NCBI RefSeq assembly: GCF_002706795.1
Contig: NZ_CP017705.1
Location: 3,532,501-3,596,500, forward strand
Source: Brevibacillus laterosporus DSM 25
GTDB taxonomy: Bacteria; Bacillota; Bacilli; Brevibacillales; Brevibacillaceae
Length of the DNA: 64,000 nt
Direction of reading: 5' to 3'
In this document: positions 14,961 through 37,340 of the stretch, one piece after another
Layout of the letters: every line of letters begins with the position of its first letter
Position numbering within the stretch: position 1 is the stretch's first letter
Translations under genes and position numbers: made by a program
The notes under the pieces: generated by a model
Told to the model about the DNA's origin: nothing
The model's input: the letters and a program-made list of their open reading frames with translations, nothing else
Database searches by the model: none

Positions 14961-16094
14961 ATGGATTTTGAAAAACGATATATAAAACAGTTGGATTGGT
15001 TGATTCTGTTAATCCTCCTAGGTCTCGGCTTGTTTAGTTATCTCGGTATTAGTGGCTCTGCCCCAGGAGTGGCGACAGCAAATCGGCAGCTTATGTGGTA
15101 TGGTATTGGTTTTGGCGTATTGTTTTGTACACTGATTATCGACTATCGTGTGTTTCGGCAACTATCATATATCGTGTACGCTGGAGGGTTAGTTTTACTT
15201 TTCGGTGTATTTTTTACGAAGGCGATTAACAATGCTACTAGTTGGTATAATCTGGGTGTCGTTCTGTTTCAACCATCTGAACCAATGAAAATTTTTACGA
15301 TAATAGCTACAGCACATTATATGTCCAAGCGTGAAGAAAAATTAGGTAAGCCGTATTATCTCTATGAATGGTGGCCTGTGTTTTTGATCATAGGGGTACC
15401 GCTTCTCATGATTTTTAAACAACCAGACCTGGGGACAGCTTTAGTCTTTTGTTCCATACTAGCAACTATGTTGATCGTCGGTGGTATTCGTGTACGGCAC
15501 ATGATTAGCTTTAGTGGGATTGCTGCTTTTGCAGTAGGATTGGTTTCCTATGTTTATATTTATCATAAAGAAGATATCTTTTTTAAATTGATTAAACCTT
15601 ACCAATGGGCTCGTATTGAATCTTGGTTAAACCCATATCATGATCCAGTAGGGCAAGGATTTCAGCTTTTACAATCCCTTATTGCTATTGGCTCTGGACA
15701 GTTAACGGGCAAAGGCTTACACACAGCTACACAGGCTAGCTTGTTGTGGGTACCAGTTGGTGAGAGTGATTTCATTTTTACTGTCATTGCAGAACGTCTG
15801 GGTTTTATTGGTGCAGGAATTATGATGATCTTGTTTTTCGTATTGGTTTATCGAATGATTCGGATTGCTATGGAGTGTAATGATCCATTTGGTGCTTATG
15901 TGGTATCAGGTGTGGTTGGAATGCTCACGTTTCAAATCTTTGAAAATATTGGAATGACCATTCAGTTAATGCCAATTACTGGTTTGCCTTTACCATTTAT
16001 TAGTTATGGTGGAAGTTCTCTTCTAACCAACTTCTTAACAATAGGTGTAGTGCTGAATATTGGGATGAGGAAGCAGAAACTTAGTTTCGATTAA
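14961..16094 (+). CDS. rodA: SEDS-family peptidoglycan polymerase, RodA-type
   Basis: Polytopic (about ten segments) glycosyltransferase of the RodA/FtsW/SpoVE family that polymerises lipid II with a class B PBP. Seen motifs include the GFGVLFCTLIIDYRVF region, the PSEPMK motif (residues about 110), KQPDLGTAL (catalytic Asp region), GWRQ-equivalent GSGQLTGKGLH and the C-terminal PLPFISYGGSSLL. ATG 14961 is preferred because GGGGG lies seven bases upstream; the frame is open 27 codons further but without a ribosome site. It follows minD and pairs well with the PBP2 at 10772. FtsW or SpoVE cannot be excluded from sequence alone. Confidence 0.88.
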   Translation: MDFEKRYIKQLDWLILLILLGLGLFSYLGISGSAPGVATANRQLMWYGIGFGVLFCTLIIDYRVFRQLSYIVYAGGLVLLFGVFFTKAINNATSWYNLGVVLFQPSEPMKIFTIIATAHYMSKREEKLGKPYYLYEWWPVFLIIGVPLLMIFKQPDLGTALVFCSILATMLIVGGIRVRHMISFSGIAAFAVGLVSYVYIYHKEDIFFKLIKPYQWARIESWLNPYHDPVGQGFQLLQSLIAIGSGQLTGKGLHTATQASLLWVPVGESDFIFTVIAERLGFIGAGIMMILFFVLVYRMIRIAMECNDPFGAYVVSGVVGMLTFQIFENIGMTIQLMPITGLPLPFISYGGSSLLTNFLTIGVVLNIGMRKQKLSFD

Positions 16095-16104
16095 GTTAAA
16101 AATC

Positions 16105-16133
16105 GTGACAAACCAATAAATGTGTGATATATT
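16105..16133 (+). promoter_or_regulatory. SigA-type promoter for the candidate RNA/csp leader
   Basis: GTGACA (16105-16110) and TATATT (16128-16133) with a 17-base spacer, 10 bases after the rodA stop. Transcription would begin near 16140. Confidence 0.7.
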
Positions 16134-16139
16134 CAAGGT

Positions 16140-16248
16140 AAGTTAACCATTTTACTTACCTAGTGATTTGATGGATTGGATGATATGCCGTGCTTTTCAG
16201 AGATAGCGTCACCATGTGATCAAGTCTCTGTTGGGCACGGCTTTTTTC
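16140..16248 (+). ncRNA. Candidate small RNA or terminated leader upstream of csp
   Basis: About 110 non-coding bases bounded by the promoter at 16105 and a strong terminator. A first hairpin pairs AGGTAAGT (16136-16143) with ACTTACCT (16154-16161); its left arm starts slightly before the assumed +1. A long rod follows: GCCGTGC (16187-16193), CAGAGA (16198-16203), TCAC / GTGA, TCTCTG (16225-16230), GCACGGC (16235-16241), then six T. No ribosome site or open frame is seen. It could be a free sRNA or an attenuator for the cold-shock gene 260 bases downstream. It does not match any riboswitch class I can recognise. Confidence 0.5.
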
Positions 16249-16312
16249 CTTGAAACAAGCTTTAAGTGATGGTTAACAGATATTTTAATCGTCTGAAAAG
16301 GCGAACATTTTG

Positions 16313-16349
16313 AAGTGACCCAGTAAATTGAGACAAGGAAAAAGCACCT
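16313..16349 (+). repeat. Diverged copy of the palindrome arm
   Basis: Thirty-seven bases align without gaps to 16371-16407 with about 28 identities (shared TGACCCAG, GAGACA, GAAAAA and CACCT). It lies 58 bases upstream in the same orientation and looks like an older, decayed copy of the same element end. Confidence 0.6.
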
Positions 16350-16366
16350 CCTGAATCGTATTAAAC

Positions 16367-16489
16367 AATGGACTGACCCAGGTTAATGAGACATTGAAAA
16401 AACACCTATGCTACCTGTCCCCATACGAGTATGGAAAACAGGTAGCATAGGTGTTTTTTCAATGTCTCATTAACCTGGGTCAGTCCATT
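16367..16489. repeat. 123-bp foldback palindrome (52-bp perfect arms)
   Basis: 16367-16418 and 16438-16489 are exact reverse complements over 52 bases. The 19-base centre holds a further 6-bp hairpin, CCATAC-GA-GTATGG. The trimmed ends read TGGACTGACCC...GGGTCAGTCCA, i.e. TG...CA as in many IS3-family termini. It has no coding capacity and no convincing target duplication. The right end lies four bases from the csp ribosome site. A non-autonomous MITE-like element or a collapsed IS relic is the best reading. Confidence 0.85.
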
Positions 16490-16506
16490 TCTAGGAGGTT
16501 TTTTCC

Positions 16507-16707
16507 ATGCAACAAGGTACTGTAAAATGGTTTAACGCAGAAAAAGGTTTTGGTTTCATTCAAGTTGAAGGCGGAGAAGATGTATTCGTACACTACAGCG
16601 CTATCCAAACTGAAGGTTTCAAAACTCTTGAAGAAGGTCAAAAAGTTGAGTTTGAAATCGTTCAAGGTAGCCGTGGACCACAAGCTGCTAACGTTAATCG
16701 TCTGTAA
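16507..16707 (+). CDS. Cold-shock protein (CspA/CspB family)
   Basis: 66-residue single OB-fold RNA/DNA chaperone that melts RNA structure at low temperature. RNP1 (KGFGFIQV) and RNP2 (VFVHYSAI) are intact, and length is exactly typical. The ribosome site AGGAGG (16493-16498) lies four bases after the right arm of the palindrome. If transcription starts upstream of the palindrome the mRNA leader would carry a 52-bp hairpin next to the ribosome site. Which of several csp paralogues it is cannot be told here. Confidence 0.95.
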
Positions 16708-16729
16708 GATCAAATATGTATAAAAAGAA

Positions 16730-16759
16730 GCAGTCTCTCTTTTGAGGGGCTGTTTTTTT
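16730..16759 (+). terminator. Terminator after csp
   Basis: GCAGTCTCTC and GAGGGGCTGT pair with two G-U pairs around a short T-rich loop; seven T follow. Confidence 0.8.
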
Positions 16760-16847
16760 ACATTTATGTTATCGATGTACAGCTTTGTTTTACATTGTCA
16801 TATCCCACGTAGACAAGTCATATACTCCTGAAAAGGGGGTGGGATGC

Positions 16848-17651
16848 ATGTTTCATGAGAGAGAACGGGTAAAGGATAGAAGGCAGGAAAGAAAAGAACA
16901 GCTTCTCTTACAATCGCGCGACAGTATGCCGCCACACATTGATGATCTACATGATCCGCTGGAAAGAGTGTTTATCCCGGATCAATATTCAAGAAGCACT
17001 GATTTCACAAACGAGACTCCCCCTAGCAAACCGGTGGGTTATCACTTTAAAAGGCAAATATATCTTTCTTTGGCGGTTATTGGAATAGCGTATGTTTTAT
17101 TAAAAAGTCCATTTGGTGTTCCAAATACATGGCGAGATTTATCAAGAGAAGTGATGACACGCGATTTCAATTTTGAGGGTGTGGCGGTATGGTATGAACA
17201 AGTTACAGGTCACTCACCAAGTGCGCTACCGGTTCTTTTTGATAAAAAAGAAAAGGAGAGTGTGCCAGCAAATGCCTATCAGCTAAGTAAGTGGAGTTTG
17301 CCAAAGGAGTGGAAAATAGCAAAGGAGTATGATTCCAAAAGTGCCAAATTAGTTGTTGATTTAGGGAATAAAGGAGAAGTCCTCAATATGGATACCGGCT
17401 GGGTAACTTCTGTTGGGGAAAAACCTGGCTATGGAACCACTGTAATCATCCAGTATACCGATGGTCGAGAGATTTGGTATGGAAATCTTGAAAAGGTAAA
17501 TGTATCTGTAAACGACTGGGTGAATACAAAGGACCTTGTTGGAGTTGCTAAACCTTTTACCGATCAAGAGATTAACACGCGTTACCTATTTATGGCGATG
17601 AAACAAAACGGGAAATTTATTAATCCATTGGACGTGATTTCATTTGAATGA
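16848..17651 (+). CDS. spoIVFA: SpoIVFA-like M23-domain sporulation protein
   Basis: Predicted bitopic protein of 267 residues: a charged cytoplasmic N-terminus (RERVKDRRQERKEQ), one transmembrane segment near residues 70-90 (IYLSLAVIGIAYVLLKSPFG) and a C-terminal LytM/M23 fold at about 180-265. The zinc ligands are missing (the HxH strand reads WYGNLEK), so it should be a non-catalytic domain. In B. subtilis SpoIVFA with BofA holds the protease SpoIVFB inactive until SpoIVB signals from the forespore. ATG 16848 follows AAGGGGGTGG. It overlaps spoIVFB by eight bases. Identity rests largely on this context. Confidence 0.82.
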   Translation: MFHERERVKDRRQERKEQLLLQSRDSMPPHIDDLHDPLERVFIPDQYSRSTDFTNETPPSKPVGYHFKRQIYLSLAVIGIAYVLLKSPFGVPNTWRDLSREVMTRDFNFEGVAVWYEQVTGHSPSALPVLFDKKEKESVPANAYQLSKWSLPKEWKIAKEYDSKSAKLVVDLGNKGEVLNMDTGWVTSVGEKPGYGTTVIIQYTDGREIWYGNLEKVNVSVNDWVNTKDLVGVAKPFTDQEINTRYLFMAMKQNGKFINPLDVISFE

Positions 17652-34745: not shown

Positions 34746-37340
34746 TTATTTAATTGTTACCCCGAAAGTTTCCTCCAAAAGACCAACTGGTAGGAATAGG
34801 CGGTTTTTCACGATGTCAGAATTTGTTTCTACGGCTTTACCATTAACAATTACTTCTGAAGCACCAAGTACATAAACAAGTTTGGCATCACCTTTAGTCA
34901 AAGTAACGCTTCTTGTTTTATTATCGTAGGCTACTTGAATGCCTAGGCCTTCAGCCGTTGCGCGAACAGCAACCAGCTTATTTGAGTTTTTCTTAGGTTC
35001 TTCTTTTTTCACTTCTTCTTTAGAAGCGTCTTCCTTCTTAGGTTCTTCTTTTTTCACTTCTTCTTTAGAAGCGTCTTCCTTCTTAGGTTCTTCTTTTTTC
35101 ACTTCTTCTTTAGAAGCGTCTTCCTTCTTAGGTTCTTCTTTTTTCACTTCTTCTTCTTTAGAAGCGTCTTCCTTCTTAGGTTCTTCTTTTTTCACTTCTT
35201 CTTTAGAAGCGTCTTCTTTCTTAGGCTCTTCTTTCTTCACTTCTTCTTCTTTAGAAGCGTCTTCCTTCTTAGGCTCTTCTTTCTTCACTTCTTCTTCTTT
35301 AGAAGCATCTTCTTTCTTAGGCTCTTCTTTTTTCACGTCTTCTTTAGAAGTATCCGCAGATTCAGCTACTTTTTGAGTTGTTGTAGAAAGGTCAATGCTG
35401 TAGTTAGCAAAACCGTTTTCACCTTCACCAATATGTTTGATGTATCCAAGCTTTTCAGCAACTTCTTTTGCTTTAGGAGAAGATGTTAGCGTTACTTTTA
35501 CGTCGCCTTTGATTGGTGCAAAACCCCAGTTTCCATCAGCTGTTGGATTAAAGGATTTTTGAGCTTTAATGTAGTTAATTAATACTTCACGATTTTCATC
35601 TGGGGAATCGATAATTACATTAGAACCGTCGATGCCAGGGAAATTACCACCACCGAAAGCACGATAGTTGTTTGTTACCACGATGAATTTTTGCTTAGGA
35701 TCGATAGGTTTACCGTTATATTGTAGGTTAATTACGCGATTAGCCTTTTCATTAACCAAAGTACCTTTGATATCGTAACGGGAAGGCTGAGTCAGATCGA
35801 ATTGATACTCTACTCCATCCAACGTATCAAAGTTATAAGTTGGGAAAGCATCATTAACTAATGCTTGCTCTTCTTTTTTGTTTGGATCGATCTGATTAAA
35901 TTGTCCAGCAGAACGCTCCAACCATTCTTTTACTTGGCTACCGTCGATTAAAACAGCTTTAATTGTATTTGGATAGATATATAGATCTGAGACGTTTTTA
36001 ACAGCAATAGTACCAGACTGGATGTCTGTATAGTATTCAGCACCGTTACGTCCACCTGCTTTAAATGGTGCAGCTGCAGACAAGATTGGAGTTCCTTCGA
36101 ATTCTGTGCCTTGTGTTGCTTTTTCTGCCCACCATCTTTGCGCATTTGAAACGATTTGGACAGATGGATCGTCATTAACTAATGCAAAGAAACTGTTGAT
36201 GGAAGCTTTGGTTTCCCCAACCGGTCCACGAACATAGCCCAAAGTGTCTTCATGGTCTTCTTTTACAGCATTAAGAATATCTTTGTCAGCTTCTACAAGA
36301 GCTTTTTTGGTAGCAACATCATAAATTGGACGTGCTTCGGTTGTAGAATCAATCACTTGCCATTTTCCATCTACTTGCTTAAGAGTTAGGTCGATAACAC
36401 CTAGATGATCGCCCCAGAAGCCTGGCATAACAGATGGAACACCATTGATAGTACCTTTTGTTGTGTCAACGCCTTCAATCCCATCAAAATCTTTGCTAGG
36501 GAACAGCTTATGAGCATGACCAAACAGGATAGCATCAATGCCCTCTACTTTACTTAGGTAGTAAACGGCATTTTCGTCATTTCCTTTTGCTGGAGCCTTT
36601 TCAAATCCAGAGTGAGGAATTGCAACAATGATGTCTGCGCCTTCTTTTTTCATTTGTGGAACGAATTTTTTTGCAGTTTCAATGATATCTTTAGCAATTA
36701 CTTTACCTTCTAAGTGACCCTTGTCCCAAGCAGTTACTTGTGGAGGAGTAAATCCGATTGCACCGATTTTAATTGTAACTTCTTTCCCGCTCTCATCTTT
36801 TACCTTCTTTTCAAAGATGTGGTAAGGAGTGAAGTAGTTTTTATCGTTATCAGGATTGTTATCTTTGTCGTCGATATAGATATTAGCATTTACATATGGA
36901 AATTTTGCGCCTTTAAGTGAAGCTTGTAGATAGTCAAGGCCAAAGTTGAATTCATGGTTACCGATGTTACCTACTTCATAATCAAGTAGATTCATCGCTT
37001 TGTAAATTGGATGAACCTCTCCGTCTTTCAATCCTTTTTCATGAATGAAATCGCCAAGTGGATTTCCTTGAATCAAGTCACCATTGTCAAACAAAACACT
37101 GTTCGTAACTTCACCACGTGCGTTTTTGATCAAGGTAGCTGTTTTAGCTAGACCAAATTGGTCAGTTGGAGCATCCTTATAGTAGTCATAGTTCACTACG
37201 TTTGTATGGATATCTGTTGTTTCCATTAAACGTAATTTAATAATGCTTTCTCCTTCTGCGCCTACATGAGCTGTAGGAAGAGCAAACATACTTAGCACCA
37301 TTGAGGTAGCTAGCACACTGTTTAGATGTGTCTTCTTCAA
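34746..37340 (-). CDS. Secreted 5'-nucleotidase / 2',3'-cyclic phosphodiesterase with repeat linker
   Basis: 864-residue exported enzyme of the UshA/CpdB/YfkN family. Signal peptide at 1-28. Metallophosphatase domain about 35-330 with TTDIHTN, FDNGDLIQGNP, NIGNHEFNFG, IPHSG and FGHAHKLF metal motifs. C-terminal nucleotidase domain about 370-640 (SNAQRWW, FKAGGRNGAEY, NNYRAFGGGNFPG). A run of seven and a half KKEEPKKEDASKEE(E)V units (about 665-785) leads to a copper-amine-oxidase-like domain (785-864; RLFLPVGLLEETFGVTI), a fold often found in wall-associated proteins. TTG 37340 is the start, eight bases after AAGGGGG. Role: scavenging phosphate and nucleosides. Confidence 0.88.
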   Translation of the reverse strand: MKKTHLNSVLATSMVLSMFALPTAHVGAEGESIIKLRLMETTDIHTNVVNYDYYKDAPTDQFGLAKTATLIKNARGEVTNSVLFDNGDLIQGNPLGDFIHEKGLKDGEVHPIYKAMNLLDYEVGNIGNHEFNFGLDYLQASLKGAKFPYVNANIYIDDKDNNPDNDKNYFTPYHIFEKKVKDESGKEVTIKIGAIGFTPPQVTAWDKGHLEGKVIAKDIIETAKKFVPQMKKEGADIIVAIPHSGFEKAPAKGNDENAVYYLSKVEGIDAILFGHAHKLFPSKDFDGIEGVDTTKGTINGVPSVMPGFWGDHLGVIDLTLKQVDGKWQVIDSTTEARPIYDVATKKALVEADKDILNAVKEDHEDTLGYVRGPVGETKASINSFFALVNDDPSVQIVSNAQRWWAEKATQGTEFEGTPILSAAAPFKAGGRNGAEYYTDIQSGTIAVKNVSDLYIYPNTIKAVLIDGSQVKEWLERSAGQFNQIDPNKKEEQALVNDAFPTYNFDTLDGVEYQFDLTQPSRYDIKGTLVNEKANRVINLQYNGKPIDPKQKFIVVTNNYRAFGGGNFPGIDGSNVIIDSPDENREVLINYIKAQKSFNPTADGNWGFAPIKGDVKVTLTSSPKAKEVAEKLGYIKHIGEGENGFANYSIDLSTTTQKVAESADTSKEDVKKEEPKKEDASKEEEVKKEEPKKEDASKEEEVKKEEPKKEDASKEEVKKEEPKKEDASKEEEVKKEEPKKEDASKEEVKKEEPKKEDASKEEVKKEEPKKEDASKEEVKKEEPKKNSNKLVAVRATAEGLGIQVAYDNKTRSVTLTKGDAKLVYVLGASEVIVNGKAVETNSDIVKNRLFLPVGLLEETFGVTIK
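34985..35345 (-). repeat. 42/45-bp tandem repeats in nucleotidase linker
   Basis: Seven full and one partial unit of 42 or 45 bases coding KKEEPKKEDASKEE(E)V. The units differ by one GAA codon and a few silent changes, so slippage or recombination between them is likely. The opposite strand is open over the same stretch only because of this composition. Confidence 0.95.

Follow-up and report, generated by a model that had tools for sequence, protein, structure and literature searches.

In Bacillus subtilis the leaders of cspB and cspC carry cold-shock boxes, and the CspB and CspD proteins influence read-through at some terminators (as set out in the passages of PMC8307031 drawn on here). In IS200 the ribosome site of the transposase gene tnpA is masked by a 5′ inverted repeat (PMC12594629, in the part cited), and in the quasipalindrome template-switch model, at least as outlined in PMC7202029, a nascent strand folds at a short inverted repeat and copies itself. 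Nothing on the locus described here was found in the literature at the level of titles and abstract openings. The locus lies within a 64,000-nucleotide stretch of the genome of Brevibacillus laterosporus DSM 25 (the window; positions are counted from its first letter), in which a preliminary description had reported a near-perfect 123-bp palindrome beside the ribosome site of csp. The palindrome is indeed there: its two 52-nt arms (16367-16418 and 16438-16489) are 100% complementary and lie 19 nt apart, the small inner hairpin that had been claimed is CCATA/TATGG in the loop, and the Shine–Dalgarno (SD) sequence AGGAGG of csp begins at 16493, with 3 bases separating it from the end of the palindrome. 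The predicted fold of 16340-16530 has an energy of −114 kcal/mol, whereas shuffles average −41 (z = −17.9; 0/200 shuffles as stable). Comparison with an intact insertion sequence (IS) from the same genome gave the following features.

16308..16310, no strand: left target-site duplication TTT (single TTT in the exact empty sites L011, L012 and L091)
16311..16369, + strand: IS left end, IS nt 1-59 (100% identity to the intact IS)
16342..16351, + strand: anti-SD guard arm of the IS, AAGCACCTCC (partner in the intact IS is GGAGGTGCTT, IS 71-80)
16367..16489, no strand: 123-bp palindrome (arm complementarity)
16369..16418, − strand: IS right end copied in inverted orientation, IS nt 1285-1236, 50 nt (comparison with the intact IS)
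16411..16418, + strand: left half, CTACCTGT, of the native 8-bp inverted repeat at the palindrome centre
16411..16487, + strand: IS right end in normal orientation, IS nt 1209-1285, 77 nt (comparison with the intact IS)
16412..16450, + strand: last 12 codons and stop of transposase orfB (YLSPYEYGKQVA and stop), spanning the loop and the first part of the right arm
16438-16445: other half, ACAGGTAG, of the native 8-bp inverted repeat (intact IS coordinates 1236-1243)
16488..16490, no strand: right target-site duplication TTT (sequence)

The palindrome is thus part of a larger element, a 177-bp IS remnant at 16311-16487; the extent first given, 16367-16489, is correct for the palindrome itself and incomplete for the mobile-element DNA, which starts at 16311. 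All 177 bases of the remnant are explained by, and identical to, the intact IS, in the order IS nt 1-59, inverted IS nt 1285-1236 and IS nt 1209-1285 with overlaps at the junctions, and TTT flanks it on both sides. IS nt 60-1208 are missing and an inverted copy of the right end is present instead. The end sequences picked out in the preliminary description, TGGACTGACCC/GGGTCAGTCCA, are true IS ends, while its statement that the palindrome has no coding capacity is wrong, as 16412-16450 is the end of an IS3-type transposase gene.

The search for copies in the same genome (one contig, 5.40 Mb) found the right half of the palindrome (loop and right arm), and with it the end sequence, at six further places. 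Five intact IS copies of 1,285 bp, identical base for base, are present in the chromosome, which suggests recent activity, and a further copy (L008) is degenerate, at 79% over most of its length. The IS carries two ORFs in different, overlapping frames; the second ends ...NYLSPYEYGKQVA and in one intact copy (L005) matches the NCBIfam model NF033516 (IS3 transposase) at 284 bits (cut-off 160) and has the Pfam domains rve (PF00665, integrase core) and PF13276. The termini are imperfect inverted ends (TGAAGTGACCCAG... and TGGACTGACCCAG...), and a 3-bp target duplication, in keeping with the short (3-4 bp) duplications of the IS3 family, is found at 4/5 intact copies and at the csp remnant. On this sequence evidence the element at csp is an IS3-family insertion-sequence remnant. 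The intact copy at L004 (G000:C1:3978354-3981431) is flanked by GTT and TCT, which do not match as a 3-bp duplication, perhaps as a result of rearrangement between IS copies. About 0.1 kb downstream of another intact copy (L007, G000:C1:616677-619753) is an ORF that, judged by its translation, resembles mraZ; with a putative rsmH after it, this would be the start of a cell-division cluster. Two more truncated IS left ends occur in the genome (L076, 94 nt at 91%, and L077, 430 nt at 99%); each matches the IS in one left-end piece only and has no palindrome. Elsewhere in the window, a dense repeat array with mostly 15-base spacing occupies 34953-35369.

An exact 31-base pattern from the IS right end had no match in the genome contigs searched, among which the window's own genome and very near ones are possibly absent. 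Across 39 family genomes full-length matches were confined to the own genome, with short partial pieces elsewhere (among the best 10 or so candidates per genome). Eighty plasmid records match the IS, 79 at 60-80% and one at 80-90% identity, as do two phage records at 60-80%. The top-ranked plasmid relative (L026, 67.7% identity) is on the B. licheniformis plasmid NZ_CP021678.1, where it adjoins an annotated cspB, just downstream of that gene; this could be coincidence.

The site as it was before insertion can be read in relatives. The exact empty site, GGCGAACATTTCTAGGAGG with a single TTT, occurs at L011, at L012 and in B. laterosporus MSSRFCCT15 (L091, where the neighbouring membrane protein has 96% identity), and in 11/11 aligned relatives the leader continues directly into the SD. 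The csp leader was matched in 31/39 family genomes, the own genome included, and the insert is absent from all 27 aligned distinct leaders (one genome each). Dropped from this set were the window's own locus (L023 and L029), in which csp is pushed past the distance limit by the insert, L012, which has the same sequence as L011, and the G002 leader, which the pattern missed and which is without the insert in a separate alignment (L016); G037, with no locus, and eight family genomes with no leader match lie outside it. A further set, which probably overlaps with the first, held 80 named loci with the neighbouring membrane protein, of which 17 were examined; 11 of these have csp in the stretch and six do not, and in none of the 11 does an IS end lie in the 320 bp upstream of csp. 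The palindrome as ancestral csp leader, for which the same sequence would be expected here in all relatives, was looked at and is ruled out by the empty sites. A replacement of the native leader by the insertion, as had been proposed, is likewise not supported, since positions 16100-16310 are 100% identical in two congeners and the insert lies between leader and SD. The foldback-insertion reading in the preliminary description is borne out by the true IS ends, the further genomic copies of the end sequence and the empty sites. Among the genomes compared, this strain is the only one in which the IS landed at csp.

The native features on either side of the insert are as follows.

16105..16133, + strand: promoter-like site GTGACA-17-TATATT with an extended −10, probably the native promoter of csp
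16138..16248, + strand: conserved part of the native csp leader, with a terminator-like hairpin (covariation in the hairpin stem)
16493..16498, + strand: csp SD, AGGAGG (GGAGG invariant in 27 aligned relatives)
16507..16707, + strand: csp, cold-shock-domain protein of 66 aa (Pfam PF00313, E 7.1e-32)

The promoter-like site is the only one in 16080-16860, against a shuffle mean of 1.7, which is not significant alone. In our reading of the alignment its −35 GTGACA, the spacer of 17 and a −10 of the type TA(A/T)NNT recur in 11/11 aligned relatives, and because of this recurrence of −35 and spacing csp is probably transcribed through the remnant. Across the family the leader is conserved over 16138-16310, with a terminator-like hairpin and T run inside a GTTAACC/GGTTAAC pairing. 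Over the seven outer pairs counted in the hairpin, 98.4% of cells are paired, and three pairs show changes on both sides. None of 500 shuffles and no slid version attained the covariation score, and the both-side changes were reached by 0/500 shuffles when counted as cells and 3/500 when counted as pairs; the number of further pair types is not above that in shuffles (500/500 reach the observed number). In the GTTAACC/GGTTAAC helix 5/7 pairs are invariant and two vary on one side, so that variation gives this helix no test. A model (R1) of the 5′ part of the leader, searched with strict filters, matched 20/250 sampled genomes of the class, all 20 in the window's family and with one match each, and no Rfam family was found over 16138-16248 at E up to 1. 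Conservation and covariation together mark the native csp leader as a structured RNA. As a candidate attenuator it can be argued for by analogy: attenuation of csp is a reasonable hypothesis because of the B. subtilis csp leaders and the effects of CspB and CspD on read-through (in the passages of PMC8307031 cited above).

The junctions of the remnant bear on how the palindrome formed. Three sites in the IS have exact inverted repeats that are 8 bp or longer and have a spacer of 3-40: the guard hairpin, 1016/1060 and the palindrome-centre repeat, CTACCTGT (IS 1209-1216) and ACAGGTAG (IS 1236-1243), at the end of the transposase gene. The inner junction of the remnant coincides with this last 8-bp repeat, and the outer junction shares AAT, counting the right flank. 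The insertion step itself, which the sequence and the empty sites show, placed a 1,285-bp IS3-family element between the native leader and the csp SD, duplicating TTT. The IS would then have lost nt 60-1208 and gained the inverted right-end copy, an order of events that we infer from the observed sequence. The likeliest event would be a replication accident in which a strand entering the IS right end folded at the 8-bp repeat, served as its own template as far as the IS end and joined up again close to IS nt 59. With a native 8-bp inverted repeat at its centre, the palindrome most probably owes its arms to template switching, or to a collapse equivalent to it, once the IS had inserted. Template switching alone does not account for a left arm that stops no more than 2 bp from the IS terminus, which a transposition-linked event would fit as well. 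For the collapse step there is an alternative in which the left part of the IS received, after IS nt 58, a second copy lying in the opposite orientation; the direct CTACCTGT repeats of the two copies then served for a deletion that brought the one inverted right end to face the other. Such a nested insertion would account better than template switching for a left arm ending exactly at the IS terminus (TGGACT...), and the recent activity suggested by the five identical copies speaks for it; against this, it requires two events, and the extra palindromic AA/TT outside the IS ends would be chance (by our estimate about 1 in 16). We consider it possible though rather unlikely, template switching being rated above it because it needs fewer events while the sequence itself decides for neither. 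Nested insertion is an alternative for one sub-step and is compatible with an origin from a collapsed IS.

It could also be supposed that the 177-bp derivative moved here as a unit, with transposase supplied by an intact copy, in line with the MITE-like movement considered in the preliminary description. Both IS ends and the target duplication are intact and intact IS copies are present in the genome, so that in these respects it resembles a MITE, but several copies of a short element would be expected and the palindrome is single in its own genome (whole-genome search) and found in none of four congeners. The remnant is thus not a demonstrated MITE, and movement as a unit is distinctly improbable. 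Long perfect palindromes can come from amplification artefacts, and on that general ground an error of assembly or sequencing might be suspected; the genome is a single contig, however, and the target duplication and both junctions fit a single IS, which makes an artefact scarcely credible. An origin from a collapsed IS, taken together with the predicted masking of the SD described below, we regard as highly probable.

The predicted fold of the intact IS has the SD of orfA masked by a 10-bp inverted repeat, AAGCACCTCC (32-41) and GGAGGTGCTT (71-80), with an opening cost of 13.9 kcal/mol, and a similar guard hairpin is predicted in the 67.7%-identical IS of the B. licheniformis plasmid and in a decayed IS copy of this genome. 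After the collapse the guard arm, by which the intact IS is predicted to mask its transposase start, would have been left facing the csp SD: 16347-16352 is predicted to pair with 16493-16498 at probabilities of 0.94-1.0 from 15 to 37 °C. The predicted cost of opening the csp SD is 9.2 kcal/mol with the remnant against 4.5 for the empty site, and lies between 1.5 and 5.7 in 27 relatives. Shuffling the IS left part lowered it to a mean of 4.4 (highest 8.9; 0/60 reach 9.2) and shuffling the whole remnant to a mean of 4.1 (0/60), while with the palindrome shuffled the mean was 6.5 and 7/60 reached 9.2. Joining the IS left part directly to the SD gave 11.8 kcal/mol, and keeping the palindrome with the left part removed gave 2.0 at 37 °C, less than the 4.5 of the empty site, so that the SD is more open. 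From the shuffles, the direct joining and the left-part-removed variant the modelling suggests that the guard arm does the masking and that the palindrome is not needed for it. The palindrome as main cause of masking was rejected on the shuffles and the left-part-removed variant.

On these folding predictions, which ignore cotranscriptional folding, ribosomes, Csp and RNases, the guard arm should lower translation of csp. The empty-site SD is itself already mostly paired in the prediction (0.10 unpaired against 0.01 with the remnant) and the added effect of the remnant may for this reason be modest. A 52-bp RNA duplex is an expected substrate of RNase III, and cutting of the stem would be predicted to free the SD (opening cost falling to about 3.5 kcal/mol). 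It is conceivable, though we think it doubtful, that the IS arm, in the intact element a silencer of the transposase, has been captured as a silencer of csp, with the palindrome as a spacer, cleavable by RNase III, through which the arm comes to lie beside the SD; if this were true, csp output in this strain would depend on RNase III processing. The genome has three csp matches, the other two proteins being 75% and 59% identical to this one, and since there are two other csp genes a partial loss of csp output may be tolerated. The remnant is a relic without evident selected function, and lowered translation of csp would be its probable side effect.

The preliminary description had further proposed that the 52-bp hairpin regulates csp as a cold-dependent or self-tuned translation switch, melted by Csp or responding to temperature. 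Likely transcription with csp and the masked SD of the predicted fold are what such a switch would need, but the folding runs the wrong way: the predicted opening cost of the SD is 14.6 kcal/mol at 15 °C, 10.6 at 30 °C and 9.2 at 37 °C, so that in silico the SD is less rather than more accessible in the cold, opposite to cold induction. A conserved thermometer would recur in orthologous leaders, and the element is absent from 27/27 aligned leaders and from the 11/11 named loci with csp; moreover the masking rests mainly on the IS left end. The cold switch was rejected on the folding trend and the absence in relatives, and, whether cold-dependent or self-tuned, such a switch seems very improbable.

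The locus is mostly an ordinary relic of a mobile element, neatly structured and with a single consequence that can be tested. Its value lies in a base-by-base example of how an IS next to a gene can collapse to a near-perfect palindrome, and in a testable route by which IS remnants could affect their neighbours, as guard arms could mask any nearby strong SD. A csp cold switch is removed as a false lead, and the conserved native leader may matter more than the palindrome.

Among known systems, the cspA thermoregulator RF01766 gives an Rfam match of 84.9 bits (gathering 78) over 16447-16758, which spans part of the right arm and the csp coding region and is not taken as evidence of a thermosensor. 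The parent IS is like other members of the IS3 family in its two overlapping frames, integrase-core transposase, length of 1,285 bp, related ends and 3-bp duplication, whereas the csp copy differs in being a 177-bp remnant with an inverted duplication of the right end. Quasipalindrome template switches, in the parts of PMC7202029 and PMC8794818 considered, likewise turn a short inverted repeat into a longer perfect palindrome from which an RNA hairpin can form; the csp remnant is unlike them in having also lost about 1.15 kb of IS, and here template switching is the putative mechanism. Finally, as in the stem-loops that mask transposase starts, of which IS200 tnpA is an example (PMC12594629, as far as cited), this IS has a predicted 10-bp version, but unlike them the remnant would turn one arm of it towards the SD of a host gene.
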